A DNA stretch of 64,000 nt from an uncultured Pseudodesulfovibrio sp. Lineage in GTDB: Bacteria > Desulfobacterota > Desulfovibrionia > Desulfovibrionales > Desulfovibrionaceae. The stretch is taken from NCBI RefSeq assembly GCF_963675635.1, contig NZ_OY776488.1:2314001-2378000 (forward strand), given 5' to 3'. Position numbers and translations under genes: made by a program. Under the pieces are notes generated by a model. The model was not told the origin of the DNA, searched no databases, and was given only the letters and a program-made list of their open reading frames with translations. This document shows positions 46,669 through 57,195 of this stretch, piece after piece. Numbering within the stretch: the first letter of the stretch is position 1; each line of letters starts with the position of its first letter.

Positions 46669-46741
46669 CGCAGCCCCGAATATAACCCTCTTGCGAAAAT
46701 ATTGAAAAGATGCACCATGGTCCTTGAACGACGAGGTGTTC

Positions 46742-49222
46742 ATGACTGCTATTCCAATTCTTCGCGCACGACACCTGATTGGAGCAATTCTGTCAGCGAC
46801 ACTTTTGTGTACGCTTTTTTTCGCATACCCTGCCGGAGCGGAACACACCAAAGACCACTTTACGGCGGCGGTTCTCACGGACTTCCCCCCACTTTACACG
46901 ACAAATAGCACAGGCGAGCCGGATGGTTTTGCTTTGGACGTACTCAAGGCGGTGAGTGCCGAGACCAAGATTACATACGACCTGCTAGTCGTCCAGAACT
47001 GGGCCGAAGCTCTGGAGGCTGTTTCTTCCGGCAGGGCTGACTTCATACCCGGCATAGGGATCACCGAACCGAACAAGCAGAAATTCATTTATACCGATGT
47101 CATGGAAACCGTTTCGATTTCCTGCTTTGTCCGCTCTGAGTCGACCGACATCAAGAATATTTCCGACCTTGCTGGGCACCGGGTAGCCTTCATTGAAAAG
47201 ACGGCTCCTCAAGCCATGCTCAGCACCAGGCCGGACGTCATCCTGATGCCGCTCAGTTCCATTGATGAAGCACTGTTCAGTCTTTTGTCCGGCAAATCTG
47301 ACGCTATCATTTTCCCCGAGTCGTTCCTGTGGAGAACAGCGCGAAAAATCGGAGTTGATAACAGGATCAAGGTCGTTGGACCTCCGCTCATGGAAGTCAA
47401 GCGGGGCTATCTTCTGCGGAAGGACAACACAGAACTGCGAGACCGATTGAACAAGGCTCTGAACTCCTATGTCGCTTCACCGGCCTTCAATAAAGTCTAT
47501 CTGAAATGGCGTGGCAGCCCCACGCCTTATTGGACAATCCACAAAGTCGCCTCCGCAGGACTGATCCTGCTCGTCGTCATTGTCATCGAATTCTCGCTGT
47601 GGCGCTGGCGTTCCGTCTCCAAACTCAACAAAAGGCTCAAACAGTCCATCGCGGATCAGGCCAGAACCCAGGCTCTCTTAAAAGCGAGTGAGTCCCAACT
47701 CAACCGGGCTCAAGAATTGAGTTCCCTTGGCAGTCTTGAACGAAACCTCATCACCGATGTGGGCCACTGGTCCGCCGGGCTGTACAAGGTTCTCGGCTTT
47801 CCCCAGACGAAAGAAGCTCCTAGCACTGAGGAATTTCGTCAGTGCTTTCACCCGGACGACCTGAAAGAATATCGCCGTAAAGCCAACGCAGTTTCACCGG
47901 AGGCTCCTTCCTTTTTCATCGAATTTCGCTTCAGACAGCCCGGCAAAGGAACCTATAGAACGGCAGCCGGTGTGTTTTCCTACGAATTTGCCGACGACGG
48001 TACGCCCATAAAACGTATTGGTGCCATTCAGGATATAACCCGCCAAAAACAGATTGAAGCGCAGCTCATTGAAGCCAAGGAAAACGCCGAGGCCGCCAAT
48101 ACAAGCAAGAGTGAATTCCTTGCCAACATGAGCCACGAGTTGCGGACACCGCTCAACGGCATCATGGGTATGCTCCAGCTCATAGTACTGGAAGATATTG
48201 ACACTACGCATAAGGAATATGTGGAGACGGCCCTTTCGTCCTGCAAAAACCTGGCTCGTCTTATCGGTGACATTCTGGATCTTTCCAAGGTCGAAGCGGG
48301 CAAGATGGAACTCAGACCAGTCCCGTTCAGTCCGAACGAGCTCGTCTCGTCCGTGCGTGATGCCTTCGTTCAACAGGCAAAGGAAAAAGATCTGACACTC
48401 TCCCTCACGGTTGTTGACGATATCCCCGAATGTGTGATCGGTGATTCCGCCCGCCTGCGCCAAGTGCTTTTCAACCTTATAGGCAATGCCATCAAATTCA
48501 CTGAACAGGGTTCAATTTCCCTGCAAGTCTCCAAACTGTACTCCAAATCATCTGAGGCTCACAGACTCCTTTTCTCTGTCACTGATACGGGTATCGGCAT
48601 TCCGCAAGACATGCTGGAAAAAGTCTTTGGCGCATTCACCCAGGTGAAAGGCACTTCAAGGAAATTTCAGGGAACAGGGCTCGGACTCCATATCGTCAAA
48701 CAACTTGCGACACTCATGGGAGGCGAAGTCTCCATCGAGAGTTCGGAGGACAAGGGGACAACCGTCAACTTCTCGGCGGTGTTCAAATGGGATGATAGGT
48801 CAGAAGCACAGTGTCACGCACCAATTGAGATACATGAAGAAAGCATACCTCCTCAGCACATTCTGATTGTAGAAGACGAGCGAGTAAACCAGATTGCCAT
48901 CACCAAACTGGTGGAACGACTGGGGCATACCACGGTCAAGGCAAACAATGGGAAAATGGCACTTGAGAAGCTGGAGGAAGAGGACTTCGACCTCATCCTC
49001 ATGGACATCCAGATGCCAATCATGGACGGCATCGAAGCCACCGGTCGAATCCGTTCTCTGAAGGACAAACAGAAACGGAACATCCCGATTATTGCACTTA
49101 CCGCCCACGCAATGAGCGGGGACCGTGAAAAGTTCCTCGAAGTCGGTATGAACGATTATCTTGCCAAGCCCGTCAGCCTGGACGGGCTGAATAACATTCT
49201 CGGGAAAGTGTTGAGCGCATAA
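46742..49222 (+). CDS. Hybrid sensor histidine kinase with periplasmic solute-binding domain
   Basis: About 826 residues: signal peptide/TM (ARHLIGAILSATLLCTLFFA), a periplasmic SBP_bac_3 domain (about 35-260, FTAAVLTDFPPLYTTNSTGE), transmembrane helix (ASAGLILLVVIVIEFSLW), PAS (about 330-440), HisKA with phosphoacceptor His in LANMSHELRTPLNGIMGML, HATPase (NAIKFTEQG, DTGIGIPQDM, GTGLGLHIVKQL) and a C-terminal receiver (LILMDIQMPIMDG). It senses a small molecule in the periplasm. ATG 46742 has GAGGTG just before it; the frame opens at TTG 46724. No cognate output gene is adjacent. Confidence 0.93.
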   Translation: MTAIPILRARHLIGAILSATLLCTLFFAYPAGAEHTKDHFTAAVLTDFPPLYTTNSTGEPDGFALDVLKAVSAETKITYDLLVVQNWAEALEAVSSGRADFIPGIGITEPNKQKFIYTDVMETVSISCFVRSESTDIKNISDLAGHRVAFIEKTAPQAMLSTRPDVILMPLSSIDEALFSLLSGKSDAIIFPESFLWRTARKIGVDNRIKVVGPPLMEVKRGYLLRKDNTELRDRLNKALNSYVASPAFNKVYLKWRGSPTPYWTIHKVASAGLILLVVIVIEFSLWRWRSVSKLNKRLKQSIADQARTQALLKASESQLNRAQELSSLGSLERNLITDVGHWSAGLYKVLGFPQTKEAPSTEEFRQCFHPDDLKEYRRKANAVSPEAPSFFIEFRFRQPGKGTYRTAAGVFSYEFADDGTPIKRIGAIQDITRQKQIEAQLIEAKENAEAANTSKSEFLANMSHELRTPLNGIMGMLQLIVLEDIDTTHKEYVETALSSCKNLARLIGDILDLSKVEAGKMELRPVPFSPNELVSSVRDAFVQQAKEKDLTLSLTVVDDIPECVIGDSARLRQVLFNLIGNAIKFTEQGSISLQVSKLYSKSSEAHRLLFSVTDTGIGIPQDMLEKVFGAFTQVKGTSRKFQGTGLGLHIVKQLATLMGGEVSIESSEDKGTTVNFSAVFKWDDRSEAQCHAPIEIHEESIPPQHILIVEDERVNQIAITKLVERLGHTTVKANNGKMALEKLEEEDFDLILMDIQMPIMDGIEATGRIRSLKDKQKRNIPIIALTAHAMSGDREKFLEVGMNDYLAKPVSLDGLNNILGKVLSA

Positions 49223-49290: not shown

Positions 49291-49539
49291 TTATTCAAAC
49301 CCTTTTTTCGTCTTGTAGGCTTCCCACTCCTCGTGGTCCACCGTGTTGTCCGCATTCATATCGGCCTCTTCGAAGGTTGTCAGATCTCCATTCGGGAAAG
49401 CCACCAGAAATTCACCCTTTGTCATGACGCCATTGCCGTCAGCATCCAGAGAATTGAAACAGAGATTGTAATTCGTATTGGCTGAAACAGACTGGCTCGC
49501 AATGAGAACCAGTACACACGCTAAAAAGATTTTCTTCAT
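49291..49539 (-). CDS. Small exported EF-hand protein
   Basis: 82 residues with a signal peptide (MKKIFLACVLVLIASQSVSA) and two EF-hand loops: DADGNGVMTKGE (32-43) and DMNADNTVDHEE (60-71). It should bind calcium outside the cytoplasm. GGAGAG lies 7 bases before the ATG at 49539. It follows the repressor gene by 22 bases and is probably co-transcribed with it. Role unknown. Confidence 0.82.
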   Translation of the reverse strand: MKKIFLACVLVLIASQSVSANTNYNLCFNSLDADGNGVMTKGEFLVAFPNGDLTTFEEADMNADNTVDHEEWEAYKTKKGFE

Positions 49540-49561
49540 GTACTCTCCGAGTAGCATTACA

Positions 49562-49855
49562 TTATCCTTCAATAAACCCGGTCAAAACTTTGATAAGTTT
49601 ATCCAGAGCTTCCTTTTCATCAACATGGTTTTCCATGGCATCCGCATAACATCTGAGCATGTACCGTTTCAGAATCAGCTTGTTTGCTGATTGAAGAGCG
49701 GAACGGACAGCTCTTACCTGAACGAGGATTTCCTCACACTCTTTGCCTGCCTCAATCATACCCTGAATGCCACGCACCTGGCCTTCAATCCGCTTCATGC
49801 GTGATAAAACATTTTTCTTGATTGCCTGCTCTTCAATTGTCATTGGTGATTCCAT
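49562..49855 (-). CDS. CsoR/FrmR-family repressor, CstR-like (persulfide sensor)
   Basis: 97 residues, all-helical. The family core is RMKRIEGQVRGIQGMI and VQVRAVRSALQSANKL. Cu(I)-sensing CsoR uses Cys-His-Cys; here the positions hold Cys40 (GKECEEIL), Tyr65 and Cys69 (KRYMLRCYAD). The two Cys without the His are the pattern of CstR, which forms di- and trisulfide bridges with persulfides and represses sulfide-oxidation/rhodanese genes. The rhodanese and sulfur-reductase genes lie next door, which supports this reading. ATG 49855 has AGGAGA 5 bases upstream. A nearby palindrome (49906-49925) may be its own operator. Confidence 0.85.
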   Translation of the reverse strand: MESPMTIEEQAIKKNVLSRMKRIEGQVRGIQGMIEAGKECEEILVQVRAVRSALQSANKLILKRYMLRCYADAMENHVDEKEALDKLIKVLTGFIEG

Positions 49856-49954: not shown

Positions 49955-50569
49955 ATGTCTATATCCGAATCAAAACTTCATATTCTCAAATTGTTGGAGC
50001 TGTGCGTCACCATCTTCCGCGGTCCAAACGCTGATGAATGGTCCACTCTGGCCACGGTTGGAGTGCCTGAACTCATTGTCCGTGTCCAGAAAAACTCCGA
50101 CACGCTCCTTGCTCCAATCCAAAAACTCAATCAATTATTGACCGACATCACAGATGAAAAGACATCTGTACTTGAAACCGAATACGTCCGGCTCTTCATT
50201 GCCGGCCCAGGCGGTATTCCCGCCCCATTGTATGCATCCTGCCACCTCGGCACCACGCCCCGAACCATGGGACAAAGTGCGCTTGACATGCAGAACCGTC
50301 TTCAGCAAGCAGGCCTTCAAATCTCCCTGGACTCCAACGAACCCGCCGACCACCTGACCATTGAACTCGAATTTCTTTTCTACCTGCTCTCCGAAGGCTG
50401 GTTCAACCAGAGTGAACAGGCGGATCAGGGCATTGAATTCGCCGAGTCTGTCATGCTCCCGTGGGTACGCCGTTTCCGGGATGCGTTAAACACAGCCAGC
50501 CCGCATCCGGTGTTCGCGTGTGCGGCAGATATAACCGTGGCGACGCTGGAAGCAGTTTCAAAGGTCTAG
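49955..50569 (+). CDS. TorD-family molybdoenzyme chaperone
   Basis: 204 residues, all-helical, with the family landmarks LETEYVRLFIAG and NEPADHLTIELEFLFYLLSE. TorD-type proteins bind the Tat signal of a molybdoenzyme and hold it for cofactor insertion before export. The only Tat-exported molybdoenzyme here is the gene at 54270-56465, so that is its likely client. GAGGATCC lies 6 bases before the ATG. The stop shares the CTAG tetranucleotide with the stop of the convergent rhodanese gene, the two genes overlapping by 4 bases. Confidence 0.88.
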   Translation: MSISESKLHILKLLELCVTIFRGPNADEWSTLATVGVPELIVRVQKNSDTLLAPIQKLNQLLTDITDEKTSVLETEYVRLFIAGPGGIPAPLYASCHLGTTPRTMGQSALDMQNRLQQAGLQISLDSNEPADHLTIELEFLFYLLSEGWFNQSEQADQGIEFAESVMLPWVRRFRDALNTASPHPVFACAADITVATLEAVSKV

Positions 50570-51576
50570 TTCTTTTCTTCCGTTCGAATCATGGCTGAAC
50601 GAAGCACTTCCAGGAACTTGGCATCCGGTTCAAAATATCCGCGCCGAATCAACTCAATGGTCCAGCTACCATTTCCCTCGGCCCGGACGAGATAAGCCAA
50701 TGGTAGTTCAGCTTGTCCAAGGCACTCGAAAATCTGCCCGTTTTTATCCGAGAACAACGGATATGCCACATCATAGTGCTTCTTGAAGTGAACAACGGCC
50801 TGATTCGAGTCATAAATACCCAACCCGATGATCTTGAGTTGACCCGCCAGTACAGGGTCGTTCTCCACATCCTTGAAAAAACGCGAAAGTTGTTTGGTTT
50901 CGTTCACACAATCACTGCACATGGTGTTGTATAATTGGATGAGCACGAAGCGAGCAGAGAGTTCAGAAAGCTGCAACCATTTGGTTCCATTCGGCAACCC
51001 CAGGTATTCCCGGTCAGCGTCTCCGTTCAGTACAGCCACCCGGCATGCGGGAAACGTATCCCCCACGGCAAGGATGTGTTTTTCTTCCTGCACTCCGTCC
51101 ACGAGATCGGGGTATGCTTCTTTCCAACCATGCAATCCAGCCGCATATCGATAGACATCGGTGTATCCGAGACGCGCTGCCCAGCGCGCCGCAATGCCGC
51201 TACGCAGTCACCTGAAACTGCGGCAATAGATCACCAACAACCTTTTCCGATCCTGCCCGGCCAACTTCACAAACCCGGTTCGTTTAACCTCAGGCAAATC
51301 CATTCTGTCACCAAGGTCAAATTCCATATTCACCGCACCGGCGATATGTCCTGCCGCGAATTCATAGTCAGCCCGCGCATCGATGATCAAAGGATTCGCC
51401 CCTGAATCCATCAAAGCCTTCAAGCTTTTGGAATCAACGAGTGCATACCCGTCTCGATCAGCTTCCATTTGTGCGGCCGACCACCAAACCTCGTTTTCGT
51501 CGGCACTGGCAGGTGCACTCCAGAAAAGGCAGAAGGCGAGGAGCAAATATACAATGGAAGATGGCTTAATCATCAT
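50566..51576 (-). CDS. Exported rhodanese-thioredoxin fusion, predicted selenoprotein (in-frame TGA at 51208-51210)
   Basis: 336 residues if the TGA is read as selenocysteine (residue 123). Signal peptide about 1-25 (SIVYLLLAFCLFWSAPASA), rhodanese domain about 30-155, then a thioredoxin/TlpA-like domain with CSDC (Cys220/Cys223, YNTMCSDCVNET). The frame stays open with family sequence on both sides of the TGA: VIYCRSFR-U-LRSGIAARWAA, RLGYTDVYRYAAGLHGWKEA. Cys118 and residue 123 form C-x4-U, matching the C-x4-C loops YCGGFQC and YCGGYKC of the neighbouring triple rhodanese. AGGAG lies 5 bases before the ATG. A hairpin follows the TGA. A nonsense mutation is the alternative. Confidence 0.83.
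51171..51190 (-). promoter_or_regulatory. Putative bacterial SECIS hairpin
   Basis: In the mRNA sense CGCGCT-GGGC-AGCGCG forms a perfect 6-bp stem with a GGGC tetraloop (51173-51188), extended by a G-U and a G-C pair (51171-51190). The apical loop lies 26-29 bases after the TGA. Known bacterial SECIS elements require a stem-loop with a G in the first loop bases roughly 16-37 bases downstream of UGA, recognised by SelB. The GC-rich codons here could make such a stem by chance, so this is supporting evidence only. Confidence 0.65.
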
Positions 51577-51638: not shown

Positions 51639-52736
51639 CTATTTATTCGGATGAACCTCATACGAATTATCTTCTCCGAAGTCATTGGTGGCTTCCAGAT
51701 AGAAGACATTCTTCGCATCAGGCATTATGTCCATATACAAATAATATGCTTCGCCAGCGCGTGCACCGGTAGCACAGGAGAAGACGATGGGCTTGTCGGT
51801 CGGAATTTCCTTGGCCTTTTTCTCGACCATATCAACAGGCATGTTGATGGCGGACGGGAAATGACCGGCTGCGTATTCCTCTGGATCACGTACATCGATC
51901 AACAGGATGGAATCCGGGGTTTCCTTGATGGTCTTCAAAAACCATTCCGTGTCCACTGCGCCTTCCGCCTCACCGGCCTTGACGGCGACCTCTGCGCCAC
52001 CGAACATTTCCTTCCATCCGGGATACCCGGCTTCGGCGACCACGACCTTCTTATAACCAAGGTAACGGGCCTTGATCGCGGACTTGTGGGACAGGGCACA
52101 CTTGTATCCACCACAGTAGTAAACCAGCGTAACTTCAGCCTTGTCAGCGGGCAACATGCCTCGCTTGTCGGCAAAGGCACTTTCGGGAATACCGATGGCG
52201 GACGGAATCGCGCCAGCCAGGTACTTCTGGTACGGACGGGCATCTACGAGAGCATATTTTTCGCCGTTCGCCATCTTGGCGTGGAGATTTTCGAGACCGA
52301 TGGAGTAATACAGCGCGTTCTTCTTATAGTCCGGGAAACCGGCTGCATAAACATGGACGTTGGTATACCCGAGAGCTTCCGCCTTCCATGCAGCTTTATG
52401 GGACAGACCGCACTGGAAACCACCACAATAAAAGATAAGCAGATCGCCCTTGTTGGCGGGCAGCTTGTCGACCATCTTGTCGAACTGGCTGGTGGGAATG
52501 GAGACCGAGGTCGGGATATACCCGTCGACAAACTTGGGCTTGTACGGTCTGGAGTCGACAATCATCACGCCCTTGGGCTTGGGCATCTTGGCATACTTGG
52601 CCACATACTTGTAATCCACAATGGAGTGAAATTCCTTAAACGCAGGTTTCTTGGCCTCTTCTGCCAAAGCCGCACCGAACATCGCGACCAGCGCGAATAC
52701 CATCATGACGGCTACTGCACACAATTTCCTATACAT
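51639..52736 (-). CDS. Exported triple-rhodanese protein
   Basis: 365 residues with a signal peptide (MYRKLCAVAVMMVFALVAMF, cleavage near ALA-EE). Three rhodanese domains follow: about 33-140 (IFYCGGFQCGLSHKAA, Cys104/Cys109), 145-245 (VYYCGGYKCALSHKSA, Cys208/Cys213) and 260-355 (VFSCATGARAGEA, Cys321). The first two share a C-x4-C loop and are close relatives; the third is a more ordinary rhodanese. It should carry or transfer sulfane sulfur in the periplasm. GGAAGGGAG precedes ATG 52736; the frame extends further. It lies 81 bases after the cytochrome b gene and 62 bases before the selenorhodanese. Confidence 0.92.
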   Translation of the reverse strand: MYRKLCAVAVMMVFALVAMFGAALAEEAKKPAFKEFHSIVDYKYVAKYAKMPKPKGVMIVDSRPYKPKFVDGYIPTSVSIPTSQFDKMVDKLPANKGDLLIFYCGGFQCGLSHKAAWKAEALGYTNVHVYAAGFPDYKKNALYYSIGLENLHAKMANGEKYALVDARPYQKYLAGAIPSAIGIPESAFADKRGMLPADKAEVTLVYYCGGYKCALSHKSAIKARYLGYKKVVVAEAGYPGWKEMFGGAEVAVKAGEAEGAVDTEWFLKTIKETPDSILLIDVRDPEEYAAGHFPSAINMPVDMVEKKAKEIPTDKPIVFSCATGARAGEAYYLYMDIMPDAKNVFYLEATNDFGEDNSYEVHPNK

Positions 52737-52817: not shown

Positions 52818-53537
52818 CTATTCCCCCTCGGTCTTGACCTTTTCCCACCACAGTCGGTGATGATGCTTGGCATAGCTGCCGGGAACCACGCCGGTAAACA
52901 TCGACTTGAAACCCGGACGTTCTTCGGGCGAAATGGCTGCCATGTAAATATGAACCAACAACCCTGCGAAAACCAGCCCCACAGCTATGAAGTGCAGGGT
53001 AACGGCCCAGCCTATCATGCCTGTGGATTCAGCCCCAAAGGTCCGGTCGGACAGGAACATGACCACGCCGGTCACGGCGATGACGATGCCGCCCACGACA
53101 GATGCCTGGGCAAAGGCCTTCTGGCCCATGTTGTAATATCCCTGATCCGGCAGTTCCGGGTCCATGCCCATCACCTTGAGCGCCTTGGGCCCCAGTGTCA
53201 TGAGCACCATTTTCTTGAGCATCCATGCCATGTCGCGCGCCGGACTGACGGCAAACACTTCGGCAAGGAAGAACCGGGCTCCCTTGAAGTTGATAAGAAG
53301 ATACAAAACGAACCCGGCCAGCCAGATCAGGCCGATGACTTCGTGGATAACGAGCAGATTCGCCCCGCCGCCAACCATGGCGCGCATGGCTTCGGGATAG
53401 CCGGAGCCAAACGGGTCAATGGCAGGATTCTGGATCAGCCCCACGCCTGTCAGCAGGAGCAGCAGCCAACAGGCCGCATTGAACCAGTGAATGAATATAT
53501 CGGATGCATCGTGTCGCTTGTACGTGATGTTAGGCAT
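52818..53537 (-). CDS. Diheme cytochrome b subunit (formate dehydrogenase gamma/PhsC-like)
   Basis: 239 residues with four transmembrane helices. Candidate heme His residues are His17 (DIFIHWFNA), IHEVIGLIWL and the pair in TLHFIAVGLVF and GLLVHIYMA. It anchors the complex and passes electrons between quinone and the iron-sulfur subunit. AGGAGG lies 6 bases before the ATG at 53537. Its start overlaps the end of the iron-sulfur gene by 8 bases. Confidence 0.9.
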   Translation of the reverse strand: MPNITYKRHDASDIFIHWFNAACWLLLLLTGVGLIQNPAIDPFGSGYPEAMRAMVGGGANLLVIHEVIGLIWLAGFVLYLLINFKGARFFLAEVFAVSPARDMAWMLKKMVLMTLGPKALKVMGMDPELPDQGYYNMGQKAFAQASVVGGIVIAVTGVVMFLSDRTFGAESTGMIGWAVTLHFIAVGLVFAGLLVHIYMAAISPEERPGFKSMFTGVVPGSYAKHHHRLWWEKVKTEGE

Positions 53538-54270
53538 CGGAATCCTCCTTATGGTCGGAATCGGAGCCGACGAACAGTTGGCGGCCAAGCATGGCGAGCA
53601 CACCCAGACCTGACAGGGCCACAATACCCTTGATCAGCGGTGCGGACTGCTTCATGACGACCATGGATGCGGGAATGACAGCTTCACGGCCCCACTCGCC
53701 CGGACCGGGATTCCCAAGATAGAACATGTTCGGCTTGGTGTCGGTCTTTGCCGCCACGCGGGTCAGGCGTTCCTTATTCTTGAGATACAGGCGACCGGCC
53801 TCACTTTCAGGATCGTTTATATCGCCGAAGACCCGAGCCTTGGTGGGACAGGTGTCCACACAGGCCGGAGGAATGCCGGCGGCCCTGCGCTCGGGACAGT
53901 AGTTGCACTTGTCCGCCTTGCGTTTGACCTCGTTGCGGAAACGAGCGTCATAAGGGCAGGCCGGGATACAGTTGCCGCATCCGATGCACAGCCCTTCGTC
54001 TATAACGACTTCGCCGGTTTCCTTGTCCTTGTATGTAGCACCAGTGGGACACGCCTCCACGCAGGTAGGATTGTCGCAATGCATGCATGCGCCGGGCTGG
54101 AACCTGGCGGTATCACTTTTTCTGCCGGGGACCGGGGCATCGCTGGTCGGCTTGATCCAGTTGCGCCACTGCCCTTCCGGGACTTCGTTGGCTACCTTGC
54201 AGGCAACCACACACGCCTTGCAGTCGATGCACTTGGCCGCATCAATGACCATCGCAAGTTGTTGTGCCAT
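53530..54270 (-). CDS. Four-cluster iron-sulfur subunit (PhsB/FdnH-like)
   Basis: 246 residues with four Cys groups for [4Fe-4S] clusters: CIDCKACVVAC, CMHCDNPTCVEACP, CIGCGNCIPACP and CNYC...CVDTCP. A C-terminal transmembrane helix (APLIKGIVALSGLGVLAMLG) anchors it, as in the FdnH/FdoH beta subunits. It links the molybdenum subunit to the cytochrome b. Its start codon overlaps the stop of the molybdopterin gene (TAATG). Confidence 0.94.
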   Translation of the reverse strand: MAQQLAMVIDAAKCIDCKACVVACKVANEVPEGQWRNWIKPTSDAPVPGRKSDTARFQPGACMHCDNPTCVEACPTGATYKDKETGEVVIDEGLCIGCGNCIPACPYDARFRNEVKRKADKCNYCPERRAAGIPPACVDTCPTKARVFGDINDPESEAGRLYLKNKERLTRVAAKTDTKPNMFYLGNPGPGEWGREAVIPASMVVMKQSAPLIKGIVALSGLGVLAMLGRQLFVGSDSDHKEDSDA

Positions 54271-56465
54271 TACGCCACCTTCCTTGTTACGGTGACAAAA
54301 GTCGTATGCATGGATGCATTTCCTGTAATTACATCATAATCATCATCCAACAGTTCATTGATGGATGCACCGTTGCCATGAGACAGGGTCTGCATGGTAG
54401 ACAGGGTGTTGTACCCGGAAAGCATATACACCGTGTCCTTCCTGATCCTGTCCGTGACTTCGGCCTTGAGCTCCTGTCGGCCAACGGAACTGGACACTTC
54501 AACCAGGTCACCGTCTGCAATGCCGAGACTCTGCGCCGCTTCAGGATTGAGCCACAGGGTATTGGTGGGGTTCAGCTCGTGAAGCAGCTTATTGTTGATA
54601 GTAGACGTCTGCGTGACTGCCGCGTCACGCCCCAGCACCAGCCGGAACTGATTTTTGGGTACTTTGGTCGGCGGGGTGTAAACGGGCATTGGGTCAAGTC
54701 CCATCTGCTCGTATCGCTGGTTATACAGCTCCACCTTCTTGGAGAGAGTCTTGTAAATACGACCGTCATAAATGCCATACACCTTGGACGGATTATAGTA
54801 GACGCCGTCACGGTCCATGACTTCAAGGGCTTCTGGAATCTCACGAGTCTGCTTCTTTCGGAACTCCTCGATGGTGAAGTCAAAGTATTCACCGAGATCC
54901 ATCTTGCCTGCGATATCCTTCATGATGTCGAATAAGGGGCGGGACTCATACAAGGGCTTGATGATCGGATCACGCTTGACCACGCAAGCGCAGGCCACAG
55001 ACCCCTGCAATCCAGCACACGGGTCCGTCCGCTCCAGATAGCTTTGTGACGGCAGAACCAGATCGGCGAACCATGCCGTATCCGACATGGCGATATCCAC
55101 CACGGTGACGAAGTCCATCTTGTTCATCATCTCGATGGTCTTCTTCCGATTGGGGGCCGTGCCCATGGGATTGGTCTTATACACGAACCAGCCCTTGATG
55201 GGATACGGGTCTTCAGCCAGCACGGAATCACGCGTGACCAGGAACGAGCCTTCGTGCTCGAACATCATCGGCACCTTATGGGCCTCAATGCGGTCTTCCT
55301 GATTTTCGTCATACCAGGGAGCATCGTACGATACACCCTTGAGTCCGACCTGGCGAGCAGCCAGCAGACCACCGGGACGGTCCCAGTTCCCAAGCAAGCC
55401 GTTGACAATGGCGAAGCTGCGGCGAATCTGGGTAGAGTCTTCATAGTCCGAAGTTCTGCGACCGGGATAAATCATGGCTGCCGGAGCAGCGGCTGCCAGC
55501 TCACGGGCCATGCGGGTGATGTCTTCTGCCGGAATGCCACACTCTTCTGCGGCAAAGCCGGGGGTATACTGCTTGACGTGCTCGGCGAGCTGCTCAAGCC
55601 CATAGGTCTTCTCTTCAACCCACTGAGGATCGTACAGCTTTTCGCCGATGATGACATGGGCCAAAGCGAGCATGAAGGCCATATCCGACCCTGGTCGGAT
55701 GGGATACCACTCATCGGAAAGGGCCGCAGTCTTGGTGTAGCGAGGATCGAGCGTGACCAACTTGCAGCCGTGTTCACGGATAGCGGTCATCAAATCGATG
55801 GAGTCGGGGGTGACCAGCGCTTCAAAGCGGTTGGCACCCGCCATGATAATATATTTGGAATTGAGCACGTCCGGAAACGGCACTTCGCCGAAGGTATCAA
55901 GGAATGCCCTATTGCCGGAGACCAGACACAGGGATTCATGAGACGTGACGTTGAACGAACCGTAGACTTCGGCAAACCGCCCCACAAACTGGGAATGCAG
56001 ATCTGTTCCGGCAGAGAAAAGATGACCGCAGGGGGTATACTGCTTGCGAACCTCTTCCATCTTCTGCGCAGCCATGTCTATGGCCTCGTCCCAGGGGATA
56101 CGCTGCCACTTGCCCTCGCCGCGAGCGCCCTTGCGGAGCAGAGGGTGCTTCAGACGGTCCGGATCATAGACCTGATCCAGTCCTGCGTTGCCGCGAGCGC
56201 ACAGCATGCCACGAGATTTGAGAAATTTCGGATTTGGATCAAGCTTCCTGATGACCCCGTTTTCAACACGGGCGATGAGGCCACACTTGTTGAAACATAT
56301 ATCGCAGGCCGAGAACTTGGAGTCCCAGGCCGGGGCCGCCACAGGAGACGCCTGTGCCTTTTTCAGACCACCCAGCAAGGCCGGGCCGCCTACCGCCCCT
56401 GCCGCGACCAGGCCTGAAGCCTTGAAAAAATCACGACGGGACATTGTCTGCTTGGAATTTGACAC
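54270..56465 (-). CDS. Tat-exported molybdopterin oxidoreductase, PhsA/PsrA-like
   Basis: 731 residues from GTG 56465, with GGAGG 6 bases upstream. Twin-arginine signal MSRRDFFKASG (Arg10-Arg11) followed by a hydrophobic stretch. [4Fe-4S] ligands Cys54, Cys57, Cys61 and Cys89 (CDICFNKC ... MLCARG), then the bis-MGD oxidoreductase fold. The residue at the molybdenum-ligand position is Cys180 (NVTSHESLCLVSG), not selenocysteine, so it is not a standard formate dehydrogenase. Most like thiosulfate or polysulfide reductases; the true substrate (thiosulfate, polysulfide, sulfur, tetrathionate) is not decided by the sequence. Rhodanese genes downstream support a sulfur substrate. Confidence 0.9.
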   Translation of the reverse strand: MSNSKQTMSRRDFFKASGLVAAGAVGGPALLGGLKKAQASPVAAPAWDSKFSACDICFNKCGLIARVENGVIRKLDPNPKFLKSRGMLCARGNAGLDQVYDPDRLKHPLLRKGARGEGKWQRIPWDEAIDMAAQKMEEVRKQYTPCGHLFSAGTDLHSQFVGRFAEVYGSFNVTSHESLCLVSGNRAFLDTFGEVPFPDVLNSKYIIMAGANRFEALVTPDSIDLMTAIREHGCKLVTLDPRYTKTAALSDEWYPIRPGSDMAFMLALAHVIIGEKLYDPQWVEEKTYGLEQLAEHVKQYTPGFAAEECGIPAEDITRMARELAAAAPAAMIYPGRRTSDYEDSTQIRRSFAIVNGLLGNWDRPGGLLAARQVGLKGVSYDAPWYDENQEDRIEAHKVPMMFEHEGSFLVTRDSVLAEDPYPIKGWFVYKTNPMGTAPNRKKTIEMMNKMDFVTVVDIAMSDTAWFADLVLPSQSYLERTDPCAGLQGSVACACVVKRDPIIKPLYESRPLFDIMKDIAGKMDLGEYFDFTIEEFRKKQTREIPEALEVMDRDGVYYNPSKVYGIYDGRIYKTLSKKVELYNQRYEQMGLDPMPVYTPPTKVPKNQFRLVLGRDAAVTQTSTINNKLLHELNPTNTLWLNPEAAQSLGIADGDLVEVSSSVGRQELKAEVTDRIRKDTVYMLSGYNTLSTMQTLSHGNGASINELLDDDYDVITGNASMHTTFVTVTRKVA

Positions 56466-56619
56466 TGAATACCTCCGGATATCCACCCTTCTACCGTTGG
56501 TGTCACAACTTTTTCCGACACCCCGCCTCCACAAGCGAGGTGTCGGGAAAAAGCGGATTGAAACTACGACGCGTCAGGCTTTCCCAATATCACTCTTGAG
56601 AGACCACCTGAACAACGTG

Positions 56620-56943
56620 CTAGCTGCACTTGGCCGGGGACGGGGAATCCTTGGCGAAGTCATGCAGATACGAGAAGATGTCATTCAGATCCTTCTCATT
56701 AACGGTCCAATCACCGGAACACTTGATCTTGCTTGTGTCCTGGAAAGTAGCGGTCCACTCCGCCTGAGTCCGATCAGCAGGACTCAAATCGCCAGCCTGG
56801 GCACCGTTGTGACAGGAGCGACAGTTTTTACGGTATAAGAATTTTCCTTTGCGAACATTTCCGCCACCCATGGCAAAAGCCATGGAAACTGCAAAAACGG
56901 TAATCAGGGCCGTTGCAACAGCCAGAACGATTGTGCGATTCAT
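56620..56943 (-). CDS. Small monoheme cytochrome c
   Basis: 107 residues: signal peptide (MNRTIVLAVATALITVFAVS, cleavage near AFA-MG) and one heme motif CRSCH (YRKNCRSCHNGAQAGDLS). Two further Cys at the C-terminal half. A periplasmic electron carrier, probably serving the downstream oxidoreductase. GGAGG lies 5 bases before ATG 56943. First gene of the putative operon; the 154 bases to the molybdopterin gene hold no other gene. Confidence 0.88.
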   Translation of the reverse strand: MNRTIVLAVATALITVFAVSMAFAMGGGNVRKGKFLYRKNCRSCHNGAQAGDLSPADRTQAEWTATFQDTSKIKCSGDWTVNEKDLNDIFSYLHDFAKDSPSPAKCS

Positions 56944-57032
56944 GATTCCTCCAAAATAAGATGAGTTCATGGTTACAGTTGTGACACTTTCCCACTCTAC
57001 AGAGCGGGCGTTTTTACGAACATTATAACCTG

Positions 57033-57046
57033 TACCCAGTATGGGC
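57033..57046. promoter_or_regulatory. Second operator-like palindrome in the cytochrome c leader
   Basis: ACCCAGTATGGG is an imperfect copy of the main operator (CCCA/TGGG arms), located about 15 bases downstream of the -10 element of the promoter at 57058-57086. It may be a secondary repressor site. Confidence 0.4.
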
Positions 57047-57057
57047 TTACTGATTCC

Positions 57058-57086
57058 CATATACCCATACGGGGTATAGGTGTCAA
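57058..57086 (-). promoter_or_regulatory. Promoter with embedded CsoR/CstR-type operator upstream of the sulfur operon
   Basis: On the minus strand TTGACA (57081-57086), 17-base spacer and TATATG (57058-57063). Inside the spacer and overlapping the -10 lies TATACCC-ATACG-GGGTATA (plus-strand view 57060-57078), a 7-bp inverted repeat. CsoR/CstR-type operators typically are AT-flanked runs of C and G of this kind. A repressor bound here would block RNA polymerase. The transcript leader to the cytochrome c start is about 105 bases. Confidence 0.8.
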
Positions 57087-57195
57087 GTGGGGGTAGCCAA
57101 AAATCAACCCAAGAAATTATCATGGGAAAAACCAGGAGAAAGGATAGAGGTTTCATACTATCGAGATTTCAATGAGTTCTGACATGGAGGTTCAC

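Follow-up and report, generated by a model that had tools for sequence, protein, structure and literature searches.

In the window (the whole 64,000-nucleotide stretch of Pseudodesulfovibrio DNA that was analysed), a minus-strand gene for a rhodanese–thioredoxin protein contains an in-frame TGA and stands last in a set of genes for a PhsA/PsrA-like molybdoenzyme and its probable partners (Table 1). The original prediction had described two frames in the same phase on this strand, parted by one TGA, and translation confirmed them as a single frame that begins with ATG, ends with TAG, has its sole TGA at codon 123 and encodes 336 residues when that codon is read as U123. The Pfam rhodanese domain (PF00581; 62.5 bits against a cut-off of 22.2) covers residues 50–154 and spans the TGA. 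It is followed by an AhpC-TSA domain (residues 197–298; 31.4 bits against a cut-off of 26), so the predicted arrangement, with the TGA inside the rhodanese loop and a thioredoxin domain after it, was borne out by the Pfam matches. The thioredoxin (AhpC-TSA/ResA-like) domain bears a CSDC motif. Its best relatives among solved structures are ResA chains (E 5.7e-8), and it scores 40.1 bits with the ResA model (NF002854), below the cut-off of 170. The CxxC C-terminal domain is thus like that of ResA/TlpA, but here it is fused to a rhodanese and has lost CxxC in some copies. The hydrophobic N-terminus resembles a signal peptide, and the protein looks like an exported one. An AlphaFold model computed from three sequences had a mean pLDDT of 41.5 and was too poor for use.

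Table 1. Features of the locus, in order of position in the window.
Feature	Position	Strand	Basis and remarks
CsoR-family repressor, CstR-like	49562..49855	minus	Trns_repr_metal 92.6 bits; C-x24-Y-x3-C
TorD/DmsD-like chaperone, convergent	49955..50569	plus	Nitrate_red_del 88.4 bits
Sec-rhodanese-thioredoxin gene	50566..51576	minus	Translation; 336 aa with U123
SECIS-like hairpin	51172..51189	minus	7 pairs, loop GGGC; register uncertain
In-frame TGA, codon 123, read as selenocysteine codon	51208..51210	minus	
Triple-rhodanese protein, exported by look	51639..52724	minus	Two C-x4-C loops
Cytochrome b561-type subunit	52818..53540	minus	Ni_hydr_CYTB 70.7 bits and synteny; start chosen by us, longest frame starts 53624
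4Fe-4S ferredoxin-type subunit	53530..54270	minus	
PhsA/PsrA-like molybdopterin oxidoreductase	54270..56534	minus	Molybdopterin 154.4 bits; longest frame, from TTG; Tat motif suggests start near 56444
Small c-type cytochrome, first gene of conserved set	56620..57156 (longest frame)	minus	Cytochrome_CBB3 29.2 bits, cut-off 27

The rhodanese loop that holds the TGA reads C118-RSFR-U123. C118, which we take to be the catalytic Cys position of the rhodanese active site, is encoded by TGC in the window gene and is Cys in all 48 loci compared. The common rhodanese loop is CxxxxR, and the C118-x4-U123 loop is two residues longer. The neighbouring triple rhodanese does contain the two C-x4-C loops with which this one had been compared (YCGGFQC and YCGGYKC), and the TGA falls on the second Cys of that pattern.

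We then considered codon 123 (U123) across relatives of the protein, hereafter Sec-rhodanese. In a search of 247 genomes from the organism's own family, 48 gave a match at 1e-20, own genome included, and in these 48 loci (the window's own among them) codon 123 is TGA in 37, TGC in 10 and TGT in 1. Four of the 11 Cys loci, L052–L055 from G217, G058, G121 and G174, are paralogs with a CGFVKC loop that fall outside the other family rows in our tree, and they were set aside. The original prediction had proposed asking whether homologues hold TGA or Cys codons in this column: of the 44 family orthologs, window included, 37 hold TGA there and the other 7 a Cys codon, and random stops were not found, the column never being TAA or TAG. 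A phylum search over 395 genomes, 43 of which matched at 1e-22, yielded 30 loci, among them five distant orthologs from one family of the same phylum, two with TGA and three with TGC. Scan loci L036 and L037 are the same records as L016 and L009 and were counted once, and the protein alignment covered 28 of the 48 loci, without L049. Reading the TGA as Trp was rejected, with Trp at codon 123 in none of the 48 relatives. A tblastn search of plasmids returned only distant rhodaneses and ResA, in four records.

All 37 TGA copies have the TGA in the codon-123 column with no other in-frame TGA in the preceding 90 codons, and the frame past it runs on open for another 33 to 230 codons. Therefore, the TGA is no chance stop. 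Over 10 chosen loci, giving 45 pairs, median dN/dS was 0.12 downstream of the TGA (195 codons; finite dS in 37 pairs) and 0.21 upstream of it (88 codons; finite dS in 26 pairs). Judged by these ratios, strong purifying selection acts on the sequence downstream of the TGA, and a chance stop was rejected on the dN/dS values together with the conservation of the TGA column. A pseudogene, in which a nonsense mutation has split an ordinary rhodanese–thioredoxin gene, would explain the presence of a stop codon, and the Cys-type gene of G231 does lie apart from its operon, on another contig. However, a decayed gene would sit poorly with a TGA that keeps one column across the orthologs, exchanges only with Cys and precedes a strongly selected sequence; on the conservation of the column and the downstream selection both a pseudogene and a split gene were rejected, the former having next to no probability in our view. 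It is also very improbable that two polypeptides are made, with a short rhodanese half ending at the TGA and a thioredoxin half produced separately. Single-domain relatives exist, so the domains can part, but the stop interrupts the rhodanese domain and the Cys relatives read straight through. Moreover, the first listed start 3′ of the TGA is a TTG at the 25th codon on, still within the rhodanese domain.

Sec and Cys have been exchanged repeatedly. On a 56-row tree that takes in the four paralogs and three rows of the selenoprotein TsoB (see below), at least 8 Sec/Cys changes were counted, of which 6 are forced by well-supported branches. This tree joins two long branches, those of the paralogs and TsoB, and the joining may be false (long-branch error).

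The machinery for selenocysteine insertion, which the original prediction had proposed to look for, is complete for selA, selB, selC and selD in the organism's own genome. SelA (609 bits), SelB (383 bits) and SelD (335 bits) all exceed their cut-offs, and tRNA-Sec scores 81.8 bits, far above its cut-off of 47. The selD gene itself has one TGA, at AAGUAAK, presumably the usual Sec site of SelD. Over 54 genomes searched, SelB passed its cut-off in 51 and tRNA-Sec in 53; in one TGA genome, G235, which is 82% complete, SelB over the cut-off was not found. Among 14 control genomes, the cut-offs were passed by SelA in one, SelB in two, SelD in two and tRNA-Sec in five, the RNA cut-off not being a strict one. 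The TGA at codon 123 is almost certainly a selenocysteine codon, in a gene for one exported selenoprotein of 336 residues. The TGA/Cys column is decisive for selenocysteine and the hairpin described next is supporting, not decisive. The original selenoprotein claim is accordingly strongly supported by the machinery, the codon-123 column and synteny, with weaker support from the hairpin.

The stem of the SECIS-like hairpin starts 18 nt past the TGA, and its apical loop lies at 25 nt (24 if the top U-A pair is counted as loop). As quoted in a 2026 review, the bacterial SECIS model has a loop of 3–9 nt, a stem of 4–16 bp, a spacing of 16–37 nt, a G in the first two loop bases and an energy of at most -7.5 (PMC13188914). 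The hairpin agrees with this model, with its stem paired at 7 of 7 positions in a register that is ambiguous, and the best fold of the 24-nt region has -13.8 kcal/mol. In the named register, which was chosen after inspection of the sequences, the observed number of pairs is attained by fewer than 5% of 300 synonymous shuffles in 26 of 37 TGA loci and, among the 11 Cys loci, in L030 alone, which is closely related to TGA copies. Of the hairpin cells, 90.3% are paired in the TGA set and 40.3% in the Cys set, and the TGA loci include three pairs in which both partners have changed. A register-free test gave a mean longest stem of 7.3 in TGA loci against 5.6 in shuffles, with 3 of 37 loci below 0.05, and 5.27 against 5.23 in Cys loci. 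Covariation does not favour the TGA set, which scores 0.188 against 0.221 for the small Cys set, and RNAalifold on the 37 sequences prefers a shifted register, other than the named hairpin. A single-sequence fold of 51 nt was no better than shuffles (z 0.42), and Rfam, searched with 201 nt surrounding the TGA, gave no match at E 10 or better. Taken together, a SECIS-like hairpin appears to persist in most of the TGA copies and in few of those with Cys, with a modest register-free excess, and we count it as the weaker support for selenocysteine.

Among known selenoproteins, the closest to the rhodanese part is TsoB (NF045694), its best NCBIfam match (E 2.2e-27, residues 8–154). TsoB is described in the same review as a rhodanese with a UxxxxU motif, two Sec residues and a DsbD-like part (PMC13188914). 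Sec-rhodanese misses the TsoB cut-off (95.4 against 805 bits), and no protein exceeded it in the eight genomes scored. The matches listed by the phylum search include 25 with two TGA codons in the rhodanese stretch; the loop is UAGLxU in the three of these TsoB-like loci that were read, with Sec at the same second loop position, and their two longer frames run on into a membrane-protein-like part. In contrast, Sec-rhodanese has the loop CRSFRU with one TGA, C118 encoded by TGC, a thioredoxin domain and a different operon. The 56-row tree does not place TsoB inside the Sec-rhodanese family. Membership of TsoB was rejected on the score, the UxxxxU motif and the DsbD-like part, in place of which AhpC-TSA is found. 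Forms 1–4 of the rhodanese-like selenoproteins are likewise rhodaneses with Sec, but their motifs (UxxS, UxxG, CxU and UxxG) are other than CxxxxU (PMC13188914). Form 3, rhodanese_LYCAU (NF041203, CxU), was also rejected, its cut-off being missed with 22.1 against 115 bits.

The review counts 119 selenoprotein families or subfamilies (PMC13188914). In its accessible text a CxxxxU rhodanese–thioredoxin was not found, nor was the term CxxxxU, for which the literature search gave no paper. By the rule stated in the review, differing Sec motifs define distinct subfamilies (PMC13188914), and Sec-rhodanese is therefore a new subfamily, provided that Haft and Tolstoy 2025 (mSystems), the source for TsoB, does not already describe it. 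The original description as a new type is thus fair at the level of a subfamily, defined by the CxxxxU motif and the fusion to thioredoxin, but TsoB already has Sec at this position of the loop.

To place Sec-rhodanese in its genomic setting, we compared gene order around it. The order c-type cytochrome, molybdoenzyme, FeS subunit, cytochrome b, triple rhodanese, Sec-rhodanese is kept in 20 of 20 further loci, which are one per genome, were chosen for having the gene and comprise 17 of the 43 other family orthologs and three of the five distant ones (L036, from genome G156, is a 21st row outside the synteny set). The TorD-like chaperone gene lies on the opposite strand in 19 of the 20, with L105 as the exception, and the CsoR-family gene comes after it in 17, not being seen in L107–L109 of the distant family. 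The molybdoenzyme has a Tat-like signal (TAT_signal 20.3 against a cut-off of 22.7) and does not reach the cut-off for PhsA (NF012032; 534.6 against 694 bits); it appears PhsA-like, and its substrate is not fixed by a score below the PhsA cut-off. In a strain and other type strains of the genus, phsA(psrA) is annotated as thiosulfate/polysulfide reductase (PMC11505543). The PhsABC and PsrABC-Sud systems similarly combine molybdoenzyme, FeS and b-type subunits with a periplasmic-looking rhodanese, whereas the window operon also has a c-type cytochrome, a triple rhodanese and a Sec rhodanese. Further genes in the window include, close to the operon, a hybrid histidine kinase that carries a solute-binding domain (46724–49222, plus strand), found nearby in some relatives, and a small exported-looking EF-hand protein after the CsoR-family gene (49291–49572, minus strand), kept in several relatives. 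A 6S RNA gene lies at 1572–1755 on the plus strand (101.4 bits).

The triple rhodanese was found in 53 of 247 genomes, and all 44 genomes with the Sec/Cys rhodanese are among these 53. The two genes are adjacent in 43 of the 44, 66–207 nt apart by match ends, and G231, with the genes on two contigs, is the exception. Fisher's test for the co-occurrence (p 3.7e-40) ignores kinship and was not used as proof. Nine of the 53 genomes, some of them drafts, gave no Sec-rhodanese match at 1e-20, and the four of these nine that were read (L110–L113) all keep the cytochrome c, molybdoenzyme, FeS, cytochrome b and triple-rhodanese genes with no Sec rhodanese following. Since the upstream genes persist without it in relatives, Sec-rhodanese is an accessory. 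In G231 (L039, L114), the Cys-type gene is preceded by transposase-like sequence and the operon contig ends in a rhodanese-like start; read by eye, this is probably an insertion.

In G241 the triple rhodanese also has an in-frame TGA, in place of the second Cys in the first of its C-x4-C loops (CGGFTU; L017:614-616), with a short hairpin behind it. This is 1 of 156 C-x4-C motif instances read, many of which show one gene more than once because loci overlap, and the G241 genome is fragmented (370 contigs, 87% complete, 4% contaminated). If this TGA is real, a paralog gained Sec at the same point of the loop in a separate event.

In the CsoR-family protein, two Cys lie 29 positions apart, and Tyr takes the place of the His of copper-sensing CsoR. 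The window and 20 of 28 further loci share this C...Y...C pattern, one G041 gene being counted twice; the exceptions are L100 and L106, in which the search pattern missed the first Cys, and L098, L107–L109, L112 and L114, which gave no match. The same spacing of 29 separates Cys31 and Cys60, the dithiol pair of the persulfide sensor CstR of Staphylococcus aureus (PMC9774590). The operon with Sec-rhodanese is probably under a persulfide-sensing repressor. As S. aureus CstR responds to sulfide stress (PMC9774590), a CstR-like dithiol repressor near the gene would suit a protein with a general task in the periplasm, repairing or detoxifying persulfides and oxidised thiols, and not one in the service of respiration. 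We consider this unlikely, given how closely the gene is linked to a respiratory-type molybdoenzyme and cytochromes in each of the 20 loci read.

The operon setting, the CstR-like repressor and the phsA(psrA) annotation together point to periplasmic sulfane sulfur, and Sec-rhodanese is likely to have a role in its handling. In the mechanism that we propose, C118 would take sulfane sulfur in the periplasm as a persulfide, the source being thiosulfate, polysulfide or the neighbouring triple rhodanese. The selenolate of U123 would attack this persulfide, so that sulfur is released or passed on and a C118–U123 selenenylsulfide is left. The selenenylsulfide would then be reduced, probably by the attached CxxC domain in most copies and by another partner elsewhere, and Sec-rhodanese would in this way serve the PhsABC-like molybdoenzyme. 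We lean towards this explanation as a whole, with a C118/U123 persulfide cycle serving a PhsABC-like enzyme, and regard the exact persulfide-reductase chemistry as tentative, a little short of an even chance.

The thioredoxin domain has CxxC in 28 of the 37 TGA copies; 5 have the domain without CxxC and 4 are without the domain. Because CxxC or the domain is absent, another reductant would have to serve in these 9 Sec copies. The original proposal that the CSDC domain is the reductant is thereby weakened: it may stand for the 28 copies with CxxC, but not for the other 9. In five genomes of one genus (L041–L045), Sec and the C-terminal domain are kept and CxxC is lost.

The same 9 copies would suit a sulfur carrier without a redox cycle, in which C118 and U123 hold sulfane sulfur and hand it to the molybdoenzyme, selenium merely speeds the transfer and the thioredoxin domain is for docking. 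The PhsA-like enzyme in the operon is consistent with this, and there are precedents: Sud is said to supply sulfur and polysulfide to PsrABC (PMC10092268), and in a sulfur-respiring haloarchaeon a rhodanese co-transcribed with PsrA was detected together with the Psr of highest abundance (PMC5437934). However, CxxC is kept in most copies, and a second chalcogen in the loop would suit a resolving role. We treat the carrier as a minority possibility. About as probable is a selenium-dependent persulfide reductase on the rhodanese fold, in which a C-x4-U pair in an enlarged active loop would make a redox enzyme out of a sulfur carrier and release sulfide. If this persulfide-reductase reading is true, the same chemistry would be latent in the C-x4-C triple rhodanese, which in one lineage seems to have acquired a Sec of its own at that place, and doubled in TsoB, and CxxxxC, CxxxxU and UxxxxU would form one evolving series of dichalcogen rhodaneses.

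In conclusion, a sulfur-respiration operon of sulfate-reducing bacteria gains a selenoprotein subfamily that is well supported, and gene models that routine annotation is likely to end at the TGA would be mended. The Sec/Cys switches (at least 6–8, on a tree that includes paralogs) provide natural Cys/Sec pairs for measuring the effect of selenium on persulfide chemistry, and the link to the operon makes the function of Sec-rhodanese directly testable.
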